Positions 31,900 through 50,027 of a stretch of DNA of 64,000 bases are shown here, one piece after another. The DNA is from Terriglobia bacterium (GTDB taxonomy: Bacteria; Acidobacteriota; Terriglobia; Terriglobales; Acidobacteriaceae). The notes beneath the pieces were generated by a model. That model did not search any database and was not told where the DNA came from. It was given only the letters and a program-made list of their open reading frames with translations. The position numbers were made by a program, and so were the translations under genes. The stretch covers positions 272,117 to 336,116 of the forward strand of contig JAIQGK010000004.1 of the NCBI GenBank assembly GCA_020072645.1, in the 5' to 3' direction. Each line of letters begins with the position of its first letter. Position 1 is the first letter of the stretch.

Positions 31900-32196
31900 A
31901 TATCGCCTCTTTAAGTTTCCCGTCGCTCTCGACTAGCTGCTAGCTGCTGGCCATTAGCTTTTGGCTCTTGGTTCTTGGTTCTTAAGCTCGGATTTCAATC
32001 ATGGCCGCTTTTCCTAATCCCTGCTTATCCGTGTTAAGCCGTGGTATGCCTTTGCTTTTCCGATCACCTGATCCACCTTTGTGTTCCTTAGTGCCCTTTG
32101 TGGTTCAAGCTTTTTCCGTTTTCCTAATCCGCGTTTATCCGTGTTAATCCGCGGTAAGCAGTTGCTTTTCTCCGCGTCTCCGCGGTGAACCCTCCT
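31900..32196. repeat. 297-bp repeat-filled gap between coxS and coxL
   Basis: A mosaic of dispersed elements: CTAGCTGCTAGCTGCTGGCC and TTGGTTCTTGGTTCTT short tandem words (31930-31985), two copies of the family ending GTTTATCCGTGTTAATCCG (32012-32050 and 32121-32160), a CTTAGTGCCCTTTGTGGTT copy (32086-) and CCGCGTCTCCGCGGTGAAC (32172-). No gene. It interrupts what is normally a tight S-L operon. Confidence 0.6.
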
Positions 32197-32691: not shown

Positions 32692-33063
32692 CTCATATCC
32701 AGCAGCTGGTCTGCAAGAGCTTGTAACTTTTGGTCGCAGGACATATTAAATGGTTCCACAGCGACTTGCCACCACGGGGGCTGGCGATTTCCGATTTTGA
32801 ATTTTCCGATCACCCGATCACGCGCGATCTCCCGATCTTCGTCTGTGTTCCTTCGTGTCCTTTGTGGTTAAAGGTTTTTCCGGTTTCCTGATCCGCGTTC
32901 ATCCGCGTAAATCCGCGGCAAGCCTTTTTCTCCTCCCTTCTCCGTGTCTCCGTGGTAGGTGTTGTTTTGCCGATCACCAGATCACCAGATCACCCGCGAT
33001 CTCCCGATCTTCCTCTGTGTTCCTTCGTGTCCTTTGTGGTTAAGTTTTTTCCGATTTTCCTCA
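32692..33063. repeat. 372-bp spacer made of repeated composite elements
   Basis: Two tandem-like copies of one composite block are visible. Block A runs from the GATCACCCGATCACGCGCGA word (32808) through TGTTCCTTCGTGTCCTTTGT (32846) and ATCCGCGTTCATCCGCGTAA (32890) to CTCCGTGTCTCCGTGGTAGG (32940). Block B repeats ATCACCCGCGATCTCCCGAT (32990) and TGTTCCTTCGTGTCCTTTGT (33018), then TCATCTGCGTCAATCTGCGG at 33070-33089. The same words occur, often reversed, at 5.8, 27.6, 28.5 and 32.0 kb. No gene. Confidence 0.65.
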
Positions 33064-33923: not shown

Positions 33924-35033
33924 GGCCTGCTCCTTATATAAAGCCAGATAGTGAATGCCAACCTGCCGATAGCAGCTCTCAAAGTGAACCCAGCCTCCCC
34001 TACGACATGCCATCCTGAATCCCGAGGTCGAACCTTGGTGAGACCGCAGGTGAAGGATCTGCTCCGCTGCTACTTCGCGGTAGCCATCCCTTATCCCAAC
34101 CAGGCTTCCAACGTCACCCATGCCCAATAACCCTGTCATCCTGACCGAGTCCGGACGACGGAGGAGTTCGGGCGAGTGGAAGGACCCCGAGAATGCATCC
34201 TTTAACATGCCGCATCAGGGAGTTCTTCCCAGACAGCCTCATCTGCACTGCATCCGATTCCAGTAACACCTATCCCCCACGACATGCCATCCCGAATCCC
34301 GAGGTCGAGCCTTTGGTGAGACCGCAGGGTGAGGGACCGGCTCCGCTGCTGCCTGGCGGTAGCTGGCGATCAAATCTCCTGCTGGATCACAAAGCCAACA
34401 GCCAATAGCTAAGAGCCCAACAGCTAATTGCCAATGGCTAATTGCTAAGTGCTTGTATTGGGATCGGTTTGAACACACGAAAGCCCGCAACTTTAAGGGG
34501 CTGATTCAAACCACATGAGGCCGCGGTAACTGTGGACCCAACGATGGCCCGCAGACTGCAGGGTTGCTGGCCTTTCCGGGTGTTCAAGGGTTTTTCCCGC
34601 CGATGCCGCTCTCGGTCTTTCGCCTTGCATTATCGGCGAAAAAAATACGGCAGTCAATGGGATTTTCGGCCAGTCCTCGGGCGGGAAACAGGACATCTTG
34701 GGCCGTATTGGTGGCGTCCCGGGTCGGGGTCCCCAACGCGCGCGGTTTTCGCGCATTGGGATGGGAGTGGAAGCACCCCGAGGATGCATCCTTCAACAGG
34801 CTGCATCAGGGAGAAACTCCAGTCCCGCCCGATTAGTCCCCTTCAGGGATGGCTGAGTCCAGAATCAATGCTTTCGGACACATTGGGTATCCATAGAGGT
34901 GCAGCGGGAGCCGCTTCCCGCATAGTCATGAGTTGCTTTTTGCGAGGTGGCTGGCATGCTGGAACTGACGGAAAGCAAGCCCGCGCATACTCCACACGCG
35001 AGCTTGCCTTTGTTAGTTGTGAACGCTGAAGAG
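33924..35033. other. 1.1-kb gene-free, repeat-rich region
   Basis: Besides the pair at 33995-34363, a second element occurs at 34174-34222 and 34765-34813 (GAGTGGAAGCACCCCGAG...GCATCAGGGAG type). At 34393-34450 there are repeated GCTAATTGCC/GGCTAATTGCTA words. An inverted repeat GGTTTGAA (34466-34473) / TTCAAACC (34505-34512) also lies here. An open plus frame at 34532-35029 has no family likeness and overlaps the repeats, so it is not called. Confidence 0.55.
33995..34363. repeat. Pair of ~90-bp direct repeats
   Basis: A ~90-bp element occurs at about 33995-34084 and 34273-34363. Shared words include ACGACATGCCATC, AATCCCGAGGTCGA, GGTGAGACCGCAGG and CTCCGCTGCT, at roughly 85% identity by eye. 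No terminal inverted repeats or coding frame are seen. It resembles the CATCCTGA-type dispersed repeats of Acidobacteriota. Confidence 0.6.
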
Positions 35034-37657: not shown

Positions 37658-37985
37658 CCGTTGGAGCGCATTTTCGCGCAATGTCGCAAAACAACTCGGC
37701 CCGACAACTCACTCTGCATTAGCTTTTCTAGTTTCGTGGAACGTAGGCTGCAAAATGAAACTCGAGCGCCGTAGGTGCGCCACAGAGTTATTCTTCTGCG
37801 CGCTGCGCGCCATAACCATGGGCGTACCCAGATACAAAGGCTAATTGCTAATGGCTAATTGCTAGCTGCTCGCTCCCGCTTCGCCTTGGGAAGGCTACCT
37901 TTTCTTACTCAGACGGCAGCCGTGCCGCGCTCTACCGTCTGGGAAGACATGGGCGCGGAGCGGGACCAACCCCGCGCCGGACATT
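37658..37985. repeat. 328-bp spacer with second copy of the GAGCGCCGTAGG repeat
   Basis: CTCGAGCGCCGTAGGTGCGC at 37761-37780 repeats the element at 36921. GGCTAATTGCTAATGGCTAA (37841-) repeats words seen near 34430. No coding frame or RNA gene is evident. Confidence 0.5.
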
Positions 37986-46376: not shown

Positions 46377-46603
46377 AAGATCATCGCGGCAGATGTTCAA
46401 TGAAGGCAATGAATCCGGCTTACAGGAACTCCCTTTCCAGATTTGACGTTCAGGCGAACTAGTATTTTTGCCAGTTTCATCCATCCATTCTTAGTCCCAT
46501 GATTGAAGCTGAAAAGTGGGAACCAGAAAGCAATCATTCAGTTTTTTGAAAACCTGGCGGCGACAAAAAGATTGGCGCCATGACAGGTTCGAGGAGGAAA
46601 GAG

Positions 46604-48340
46604 ATGTACCGTAAAATTATGAGTCGCTTCGTTATTATCGCGGCACTTCTTGCGCTCGGCGTTAGCATCGCATCAGCGCAGGATGCATCCATAAAGGTGA
46701 GGGTAAGTCCACCGGAAGCCTACATTTTTGTGGATGGGCAGCCTTTTGCGCACCGCAGCCAAACCATCAATCTCTCCGCTGGTGAGCACACCATCGGTGT
46801 TTACAACTACGGCTTTGTGCCGCAGGTACAAACAGTAACGCTGCAAGCGGGCCGCAATCCGGAAATCGTTGCGCGGCTGCAGGCAGTACCGGGATCTGTA
46901 AGCGGTCCGTGGGGACGCATTCAGATTGAGGGCAATGTAAACGACAAAGCCGCTGTATTCATTAATGGTGTGAAGCCGGAATATTTCGTTGGCCACATCG
47001 ATGAAATGAACAATGAGAAGCTCGCCACGCAGAAACTCGTTCTGCCGGTGGGGACCTATGAGTTGTTCCTGGTGAATCCAAAGGAAACCGAGCCGTTCTT
47101 TACCGACAAGATTGAAGTGCTGGCAAACCAGCGCCTGGTAATCGACATCGGAGACAAGACGCACAAATACCACAACTGGGACAAAGCCGGACACAAGGCT
47201 TCACTGAACCGCTTCCATACTGGCGCAAACTCGGCCAGCATCGCCGTTGCCCCGGTCACCGGCAATTTCACCGCAAACAAGATTGACATCCAATGCGGCG
47301 AAACCGTTACGCTGAGCTGGAATTCAACTGAAGCCGCCGAAGTTGGCATCGCAGCATCACCGATGCAAGCAGTGCCGGCCTCCGGAGAGCGGGTTGATTC
47401 TCCGACCCAGACCACAACCTATACGTTCCAGGCGAAGGGTCCTGGCGGAATCGTCACGCAGGCAGCCACTGTGCATGTTGACCCCAACGTGCAGACTGCT
47501 CTGACGGCGAATCCAACTGAAGTCCACTATCGCAAGATCGATGACAAAGTCATCGTTCCCGGAACGTCAACTCTGGCGTGGACCACGACGAACGCGCAGA
47601 CGGCTGCCATCAATCCACTGGGCGCGGTTGCGACCAATGGAGAGAAGGCAGTGCCGGCGGATCCCAAACAGACCAACATCGGTCCTGTGGACGAGATGGC
47701 CATGTACGTACTCACGGCCACCAACAATTGCGGCGGTCTGGATAAAACTCTGGCTGCAGTTCATATCACCGGCACCATTGAGCCTCTGCCCGTGGTTCCG
47801 CTAGCCAGCGTCTTCTTCCCCACGGCTTATCCCACGGAAAAGCATCCGGAAATTGGCCTGCTCAATGGCGAGAAATCGCTACTGGACGGTGCGGTAGCCG
47901 GTTACAAGAAGTTCCTGGAATACGATCCTGACACCAAACTGAAAATCATCGCGAATACTGACCCCCGCAGCTCCGATGACTTCAATATGGCGCTTAGCCT
48001 GCGGCGCGCTAACATCGTGAAAGCCGCCCTGGTATCTCTTGGCGTAGATGAAAGCAAGATTGTTATCGAAGCCCTGGGAGAAAACCAGCAACTAGACAAG
48101 GCTGCTGTGAAAGCCCTGGAAGAAAAGAACGGCTTGAACCGTCGGGTTACAACCGCATTGGTTCTGGCTTACAACCGTCGCGCGGACCTCGTCATGGTTC
48201 CAACAGAGAAGCCTGCGCAGACGTCTGAAGTAAAGCTGCCCAAAAATAAAATTATTGAGAGCAGCAAGTTCAAGGGTCTCCGGACCGTTGAAAAAGCGAG
48301 CGCTGTCGTAGCTGAAACCGCTGCCGCGGGTCAGCAATAG
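46604..48340 (+). CDS. PEGA/OmpA-type envelope protein
   Basis: GGAGG precedes the ATG at 46604, and MSRFVIIAALLALGVSIASA gives a signal peptide. Residues ~27-95 form a PEGA domain (IKVRVSPPEAYIFVDGQPFA, HTIGVYNYGFVPQVQTVTL). Residues ~100-185 form another PEGA-like segment (INGVKPEYFVGH). Residues ~215-390 have Ig-like repeats with CGETVTLSWNSTEAAEV and STLAWTTTNAQTAAI. A C-terminal OmpA-like domain (~410-540) has LKIIANTDPRSSDDFNMALS, RRANIVKAALVSLGVDESKI and ALGENQ, normally binding peptidoglycan. GHTD is replaced by ANTD. It likely links wall and surface. A strong terminator follows. Confidence 0.85.
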   Translation: MYRKIMSRFVIIAALLALGVSIASAQDASIKVRVSPPEAYIFVDGQPFAHRSQTINLSAGEHTIGVYNYGFVPQVQTVTLQAGRNPEIVARLQAVPGSVSGPWGRIQIEGNVNDKAAVFINGVKPEYFVGHIDEMNNEKLATQKLVLPVGTYELFLVNPKETEPFFTDKIEVLANQRLVIDIGDKTHKYHNWDKAGHKASLNRFHTGANSASIAVAPVTGNFTANKIDIQCGETVTLSWNSTEAAEVGIAASPMQAVPASGERVDSPTQTTTYTFQAKGPGGIVTQAATVHVDPNVQTALTANPTEVHYRKIDDKVIVPGTSTLAWTTTNAQTAAINPLGAVATNGEKAVPADPKQTNIGPVDEMAMYVLTATNNCGGLDKTLAAVHITGTIEPLPVVPLASVFFPTAYPTEKHPEIGLLNGEKSLLDGAVAGYKKFLEYDPDTKLKIIANTDPRSSDDFNMALSLRRANIVKAALVSLGVDESKIVIEALGENQQLDKAAVKALEEKNGLNRRVTTALVLAYNRRADLVMVPTEKPAQTSEVKLPKNKIIESSKFKGLRTVEKASAVVAETAAAGQQ

Positions 48341-48353
48341 CGACTCATCGACA

Positions 48354-48397
48354 ATGGCCTTCCTCCATCGCTAGGTGGAGGAAGGCCATTTCGTTTT
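48354..48397 (+). terminator. Strong intrinsic terminator after the OmpA-type gene
   Basis: A 14-bp perfect stem, ATGGCCTTCCTCCA (48354-48367) with TGGAGGAAGGCCAT (48376-48389), 8-nt loop, then TTCGTTTTT. Confidence 0.9.
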
Positions 48398-48420
48398 TCA
48401 CCCGTGGACGCCAGGGATTT

Positions 48421-48582
48421 GAGACATCCCCGCCGAGACATCCCCGCCGAGACATCCCCGCCGAGACATCCCCGCCGAGACATCCCCGCCGAGACATCCC
48501 CGCCGAGACATCCCCGCCGAGACATCCCCGCCGAAACATCGAGACATCCCCGCCGAAACATCCCCGCCGAAACATCCCCGCA
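48421..48582. repeat. Tandem array of a 14-bp unit (11 full copies plus one partial)
   Basis: The unit is GAGACATCCCCGCC. Eight exact copies run 48421-48532, then a truncated GAAACATC (48533-48540), then GAGACATCCCCGCC (48541-48554), GAAACATCCCCGCC (48555-48568) and GAAACATCCCCGCA (48569-48582). The unit is not a multiple of three, so any translation cycles through three phases; open frames on both strands are a by-product. There are no spacers, so it is not CRISPR. It lies between the OmpA terminator and a membrane protein gene. Confidence 0.95.
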
Positions 48583-48712
48583 GAAGAACTTGTATGCAAT
48601 TCTTTCTGTCAGTTTTGCCAGTAGCAGCCCGTTGCTGCAGTTTCTAAGCTTAGGTCAATGTCAGAGCAGCACTCAAGAGCGGGCGGAGCTGCGCAGGAGA
48701 AGAGGTAATCCG

Positions 48713-49159
48713 TTGAACGACATATGGCAAAGAGTGGTCGATAATCTCTTCGGGCGTTTAGATGGCCCGCTTCACTTCCGGTTCATCATGCAGCCCGTGA
48801 TGGCGATGCTCCTGGCGATGATTGGCGGGATCAAGGATGCAAAGCTCGGCAACCCGCCATATCTCTGGGGCATGTTTTCGGGCTCTCAGCATCGCAAAGA
48901 GTTTTTACAGGACGGCTGGAAGCATGCCGGCAGGATCTTCATTCTCGCGACCGTGCTGGAACTCATCTACCAGCCACTCGTTCTGCATGCGTTTTATCCG
49001 GGAGAAATGCTGATTGTCGCGTTTGTGCTGGCGATTGTGCCTTACGTTCTGGTACGCGGGCCGACGAATCGCATTGCGCATCTCTTTATTAAAAACGCGA
49101 ACAAGGCTGCTTCCGCTCCAGCCGGGGTTGGTAGCCGGGTAAAGCGGAAACCTGCTTAA
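48713..49159 (+). CDS. Small membrane protein, 148 aa (hypothetical)
   Basis: The TTG at 48713 with AGAGG upstream gives LNDIWQRVVDNLFGRLDGPL as the first residues, followed by FRFIMQPVMAMLLAMIGGIK, a loop (NPPYLWGMFSGSQHRKEF), then helices GRIFILATVLELIYQPLVLH and MLIVAFVLAIVPYVLVRGPT. Three or four membrane segments are likely, ending in a basic tail. I recognise it as a conserved hypothetical of soil bacteria but cannot name a function. The longer frame through the 14-bp repeat array is rejected because the repeat translates to a low-complexity artefact. Confidence 0.7.
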   Translation: MNDIWQRVVDNLFGRLDGPLHFRFIMQPVMAMLLAMIGGIKDAKLGNPPYLWGMFSGSQHRKEFLQDGWKHAGRIFILATVLELIYQPLVLHAFYPGEMLIVAFVLAIVPYVLVRGPTNRIAHLFIKNANKAASAPAGVGSRVKRKPA

Positions 49160-49181
49160 AGAAACTTTTGCTCCGCCAGCC

Positions 49182-50027
49182 CTAGCCTTTCTTCTTCGGC
49201 TTCATCATTTGCCACTGCTCTTCCGTCAGCATATCGCCCATATGCCCGAACTCGCTTGCGCCTTTGAGTTGCTCGCCGCCGTCCATAACGATTTGTTCTC
49301 CGTTCACGTAGCCTGATCGGTCGCTCAGCACAAAGGCCGCCAGGTCGGCCAGCTCTTCATGCGTGCCAAAACGTCCCAGAGGATTTTTCTTCTTTGCGAT
49401 TTCTTCCAGGGATTTCACGGGCATCAACCGCGAGAATGCGCCTTCTGTCGGGACCGGACCGGGCGCGATGGCGTTAAATCGAATTCCGTATTTCCCCCAC
49501 TCCACCGCGAGGCTGCGCGTCATGTTCAACACGCCCGCCTTGGCCACCGACGAAGGCACCACATAAGGCGAGCCCCACTGGGCGTACGTGGTGGTGATGC
49601 TCAGGACGCTGGCTTTGCGCTTTTCTTTGATCCACCGCTTGCCGCACGCCATGGTGCAATGAAGCGTGCCCATGAGCACGATTCCGATCACAGCTTCAAA
49701 CGCTCCAATGGAAAGCTCTTCTGTGCGGCAGAGAAAATTACCGGCAGCGTTGTTCACCAGCGCGTCCAGCGGCCCATCTTGCCAGATCTCGTCGATCATG
49801 GCATTGACTCGCTGATTATCGCGAACATCGCAGGAAAACGTCTTCACCGTCCCGCCAGTAGCTTTGCTTAGCTCATCGGCGGCTTCCGTAAGCACGTCTT
49901 CGCGCCGTCCGCAGATGTATAGCGATGCGCCCAGTTCAAGGAAGCGTTTGCCCATGCTCTTGCCCAGGCCGGTTGCCCCGCCGGTGACCAGAATTCTCTT
50001 GCCTGCGAGTAAGTTCTTTTCAAACAC
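49182..50027 (-). CDS. 2,4-dienoyl-CoA reductase-like SDR
   Basis: The 281-residue short-chain dehydrogenase has the NADP-binding GGATGLGKSMGKRF, NNAAGNF and the distinctive SSVAKAGVLNMTRSLAVEWG followed by FNAIAPGPVPTEGAFSRL. The classical Tyr-x3-Lys is altered: the Tyr position is Ser, and GPxPTxGAFSRL is typical of mammalian-type 2,4-dienoyl-CoA reductases (DECR). It would reduce the 2,4-double-bond intermediate of unsaturated fatty-acyl-CoA oxidation with NADPH. It is 107 bp downstream of a short CoA transferase on the same strand, in line with an acyl-CoA role. Confidence 0.85.
   Translation of the reverse strand: MFEKNLLAGKRILVTGGATGLGKSMGKRFLELGASLYICGRREDVLTEAADELSKATGGTVKTFSCDVRDNQRVNAMIDEIWQDGPLDALVNNAAGNFLCRTEELSIGAFEAVIGIVLMGTLHCTMACGKRWIKEKRKASVLSITTTYAQWGSPYVVPSSVAKAGVLNMTRSLAVEWGKYGIRFNAIAPGPVPTEGAFSRLMPVKSLEEIAKKKNPLGRFGTHEELADLAAFVLSDRSGYVNGEQIVMDGGEQLKGASEFGHMGDMLTEEQWQMMKPKKKG

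Follow-up and report, generated by a model that had tools for sequence, protein, structure and literature searches.

Organization of the locus and anatomy of the array

The tandem array spans positions 48421–48582 of the window (the whole 64,000-nucleotide stretch of DNA that was analyzed), exactly where the earlier note had placed it, and occupies the spacer between two genes of the plus strand. The upstream gene (46580–48340), taken from the list of open reading frames (ORFs), encodes a protein of 586 aa in which a domain search detected PEGA and OmpA domains. Behind this gene, a terminator scan located an intrinsic terminator on the plus strand with a stem of 17 pairs (48353–48390) followed by TCGTTTTTCA, which bears out the terminator previously noted upstream of the array. 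The repeats begin 30 bp past the stem and end 130 bp before TTG 48713, the start codon assigned to the downstream gene (48713–49159, plus strand) from the ORF list and the starts of its homologues. The product of this gene, 148 aa in length, has no matching family in Pfam or NCBIfam; judged by eye from its hydrophobic stretches, it looks like a small membrane protein. The former description of the flanks as two envelope genes is thus correct in part. A convergent SDR gene (49182–50027) is directed toward the array. The products of the six neighboring genes examined are an ECF sigma factor, the PEGA/OmpA protein, the unknown membrane protein, the SDR, a CoA-transferase and a histidine kinase.

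A recount of the array gave 12 units, 11 of full length and one truncated. Eight exact copies of GAGACATCCCCGCC follow one another in tandem from 48421 to 48532, as delineated from the sequence and by TRF, and are succeeded on the same (plus) strand by a truncated 8-bp unit, GAAACATC (48533–48540), a ninth exact copy (48541–48554), and two variant units, GAAACATCCCCGCC (48555–48568) and GAAACATCCCCGCA (48569–48582). Both variants carry GAA in place of GAG, and the last unit additionally ends in A. The eleven copies reported earlier correspond to the full-length units, the total being 12 when the truncated one is counted. Likewise, the eight contiguous exact copies and the truncated unit had been described correctly, but one of the three supposed variants is the exact copy at 48541–48554. 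The array received a TRF score of 259 with a period of 14 and 11.9 copies. Among 100 first-order Markov sequences, each 64 kb long, the best score was 60 and the highest copy number 2.3; the array is, therefore, not a product of chance.

The truncated unit is spanned by a perfect 22-bp tandem duplication (48519–48562, plus strand), in which 48519–48540 equals 48541–48562, as found by TRF and by direct comparison. The duplication may be a relic of slippage or of an unequal-duplication event, with the truncated unit at its seam; a 6-bp deletion within one unit accounts for the truncation equally well. The variants sit toward the 3′ end of the array and the contiguous identical copies at its 5′ end, a placement that would fit an old, degenerate end and a recent expansion.

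The copy number is that given by the draft assembly, which consists of 42 contigs and in which such an array can be collapsed or altered; short reads handle perfect repeats of this length poorly. A misassembly that made the copy number or the whole array is nevertheless extremely improbable, as the distinct variant and truncated units are unlike the outcome of a simple collapse and the flanks are continuous genes.

Distribution of the repeat in this and other genomes

No genome site other than the array matched the 28-letter dimer with up to three mismatches. A search of the whole genome for the single unit, which the earlier note had suggested, did not rise above chance level: with at most one mismatch allowed, two sites, both with one mismatch, were found outside the array, against three for the reversed control. 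Because the dimer is confined to the array and the single unit occurs elsewhere at chance level, the array is locus-specific and does not belong to a dispersed repeat family. A TRF analysis of 1,670,117 bases, window included (26% of the 6.44-Mb genome), ranked it first in copy number among arrays whose units measure 10 bp or longer. The next value in this sample is 3.9, so that only this array exceeds four copies. Six TRF rows of the same sample outscore it, all with longer units (107–243 bp) in 1.8–3.1 copies. The best 15 TRF rows obtained from relatives (427,578 bases) include no array of ≥10-bp units above 4.0 copies.

A tie between the array and the PEGA/OmpA gene family was considered and rejected, since inspection by eye revealed no array in the ~800 and ~900 bases behind the paralogues on contigs C21 and C7, respectively. 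The paralogue on C21 (G000:C21:41034–42791) is full-length and 69% identical to the PEGA/OmpA gene, with an open frame and a TAA as the codon just before its ATG; the match on C7 is shorter and 53% identical.

A 26-letter stretch of the array was searched with up to three mismatches in 300 genomes of the family, a draw from a larger group in a collection that holds one genome per species. The only genome that matched was the window's own; the other 299 did not. Few relatives have a homologue of the downstream gene: one draw gave 1 of 60 relatives (own genome excluded), and a second one, from the phylum, 6 of 296 other genomes. Seven homologue loci were read for 1.5 kb to either side, and none of them holds such an array.

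Whole-genome searches of the congeners gave no match to the small downstream gene in any of eight genomes and only partial matches, with at most 52% identity, to the PEGA/OmpA gene. A counterpart of the SDR gene is present in all nine genomes of the genus that were searched, own included. Seven congener stretches were compared (G001 and G003–G008, the SDR match of G002 being left out). The SDR gene occurs in all of them and its CoA-transferase neighbor in five, and the ECF, PEGA/OmpA and small membrane-protein genes occur in none. Some of the contigs are short (that of G006 ends ~2 kb behind the SDR gene), and the comparison is weak when taken by itself. No orthologous empty or shorter spacer was found in these seven stretches, where the flanking genes are missing. 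The similarity to the congeners ends just behind the SDR gene, at 49160–49187 of the window, and G004 has a fatty-acid hydroxylase-family gene behind the SDR gene instead.

An exact-pattern search of 84,980 species genomes matched a single stretch, L050, from a Verrucomicrobiales MAG. At L050:828–865, 2.8 tandem copies of GAAACATCCCCGCC lie between a MotA/ExbB-family and an ExbD-family gene, and 33 bases are identical to 48549–48581 of the window. Such identity to the 3′ end of the array in an unrelated genome was counted against the minisatellite account developed below. The flanks of L050 show no likeness to those of the window by eye, and the dimer, with up to three mismatches, was found in 1 of 239 genomes of that order, namely that of L050, the other 238 being without it. 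As 1.67 Mb contained one other exact array of period 14 that is 28 bp or longer, ~150,000 would be expected in 257 Gb. There are ~10 million 14-bp words when rotations and both strands are pooled, which gives 0.03–0.1 chance matches to this word, an estimate whose rate comes from one array. The likeness is thus unlikely as chance but not compelling, and we regard it, with low confidence, as probably a coincidence.

Were the likeness more than that, GARACATCCCCGCC could be a tandem element, functional or mobile, that different phyla have in common, acting as a length-tunable spacer just upstream of membrane-protein genes here and at the exbB–exbD pair of L050; we consider this very improbable. 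Iteron arrays of plasmid origins are direct repeats of a length order similar to that of the array. In contrast to these, there is no replication gene among the six neighbors, and no match to the array exists in 72,556 plasmid records. The latter result, obtained by blastn with a low-complexity filter that does not hide the query, extends to phages and led us to reject a mobile origin. Searches of viral contigs with exact patterns gave no match to the array either.

Coding, regulatory and structural readings

A 251-aa ORF (48404–49159) runs through the array in frame and would extend the downstream membrane protein; copy-number changes would then switch the N-terminus of the product. The frame is indeed open, and the frames of the homologues L171 and L173 also continue upstream of the likely start. 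However, the ORF exists because the array lacks stops in all six frames, and a motif resembling a ribosome-binding site, AGGAGAAGAGG, lies directly before TTG 48713. The 251-aa reading is not credited for two reasons. Start codons of the homologues are situated near the residue of TTG 48713 in L171, L172 and L174, and as one among several in L173 (L175, L176 and L010 were left out of this comparison); in addition, the codon-position GC of 48584–48712 is flat (0.47/0.51/0.53) in comparison with that of the gene (0.60/0.38/0.64). A coding array is accordingly a very poor candidate. To judge from the sequence, translation of the downstream gene probably does not include the repeats, and their place outside the coding sequence is supported.

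The earlier note had suggested a protein-binding array with the potential to tune the promoter downstream of it. More generally, the array could be a promoter-associated variable-number repeat, i.e., a contingency locus, whose length would tune transcription of the downstream gene via a bound protein or the structure of the DNA. Its location behind a terminator and upstream of a gene start is consistent with this possibility, and there are precedents in other bacteria. According to the part of PMC12817950 available to us, tandem repeats in Mycobacterium tuberculosis promoters vary in copy number, and the unit, 57 bp long in the dop repeat, carries or abuts the promoter. In Mycoplasma hyopneumoniae, repeats are found upstream of genes showing expression differences (available excerpt of PMC5179023). 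The present locus shares with the M. tuberculosis cases, as that part of the paper presents them, a tandem repeat upstream of a gene, but differs from them in that its unit is 14 bp long, has no promoter-like match, and stands 130 bp from the start codon. Between the array and the start codon, the best sigma-70-type match reaches 8/12 with a 15-bp spacer, and the sole match of a standard scan of 48200–48900 is at 48717–48745, inside the downstream gene. Furthermore, the unit is not dispersed in the genome, its 14-bp spacing is no multiple of the helical repeat and would turn each site by ~120 degrees, and none of the seven homologue loci read around the downstream gene's relatives has a comparable array.

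A DNA structure was considered in the form of a G-quadruplex. The minus strand contains four GGGG+ runs with loops of up to 12; this pattern has two matches, both in the array and none elsewhere in the window. Over its 162 nt, the minus strand of the array has a mean G4Hunter value of 1.22 (absolute), compared with at most 0.69 elsewhere in the window. Against this, neither strand of the window carries a canonical motif (runs of at least three G, loops 1–7), and RNA folding with quadruplexes allowed uses none on the minus strand. Rfam gave no match in 48300–48800 at E values up to 1. Literature searches found no paper containing the 14-letter rotation of the array unit, and none matched a query on repeats upstream of promoters. 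A promoter-tuning repeat is unlikely, though less so than the other alternatives discussed here; the proposed protein-binding array is not supported, given the lack of dispersed units, of a good sigma-70-type promoter, and of arrays at the homologue loci, and a regulatory role for the array lacks support.

The minus strand was also analyzed at the level of RNA. When transcribed from this strand, the array is predicted to form two long G–U-rich hairpins, which could stop or stabilize transcripts that read through from the convergent SDR gene aimed at it. The predicted energy of this RNA, −95.6 kcal/mol, is striking (z −8.1 versus dinucleotide shuffles), compared with only −15.0 for the plus strand. 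However, when arrays were built from 11 copies of a randomly permuted unit, 135 of 600 were at least as stable on one strand. Folded as DNA, the minus strand reaches −24.1 kcal/mol (z −2.5), a value matched by 130 of 200 permuted units. Because the period-preserving control attains the stability of the pure array so often, the minus-strand fold is no sign of selection, and a selected antisense hairpin was discarded; an antisense RNA element at this site is highly improbable. In our reading, the modeled fold would arise from G–U self-pairing of GGGAUGUCUC.

Interpretation as a probable lineage-specific minisatellite

Most likely, and with good confidence, the array is an ordinary lineage-specific bacterial minisatellite, expanded by slippage; the spacer that contains it separates a terminated gene from an accessory gene for a membrane protein. 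It consists of head-to-tail units above chance and is specific to its locus, as anticipated for a minisatellite. The bacterial minisatellites or VNTRs described in the accessible part of PMC2884548 resemble it in their near-identical, head-to-tail intergenic units, their occurrence in one lineage and their internal degenerate units. They differ in size, as only units of at least 20 bp are counted there, a cut-off that lies above the 14-bp unit of the array. The same part of that paper discusses minisatellites and replication slippage, and the use of tandem repeats in strain typing.

The array may have originated from a short GC-rich intergenic word that was duplicated once and subsequently expanded in this lineage by slipped-strand mispairing (or unequal exchange), with changes in the length of the spacer being probably nearly neutral. 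The recent expansion proposed in the earlier note gains support from the nine identical units, the perfect internal duplication of 22 bp, and the absence of the array from the 299 other genomes of the family. We infer recency, the slippage mechanism, near-neutrality and variation of copy number between strains; a variable-number locus, the other suggestion made in that note, is plausible. Room for selection remains, since the copy number is unusual for the genome.

If the minisatellite account is correct, the array has little importance by itself: it would be a candidate marker for typing strains of one bacterium, and a clean example of a minisatellite that is probably young. If its length varies and alters expression of the downstream gene, a contingency locus would be added in Acidobacteria, a group for which none of the titles found in a literature search concerned such repeats.

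Other, degenerate tandem arrays were observed in the course of the analysis. A heptad array of GCTAATT is present in 6.4 copies at G000:C4:266664–266708, and similar heptad-type arrays occur at 34401–34445 and 37840–37864 of the window. Two degenerate decamer arrays with related words, TAATCCGCGT and ATCCGCGTAA, are located less than 800 bp apart at 32125–32157 and 32891–32917 of the window.
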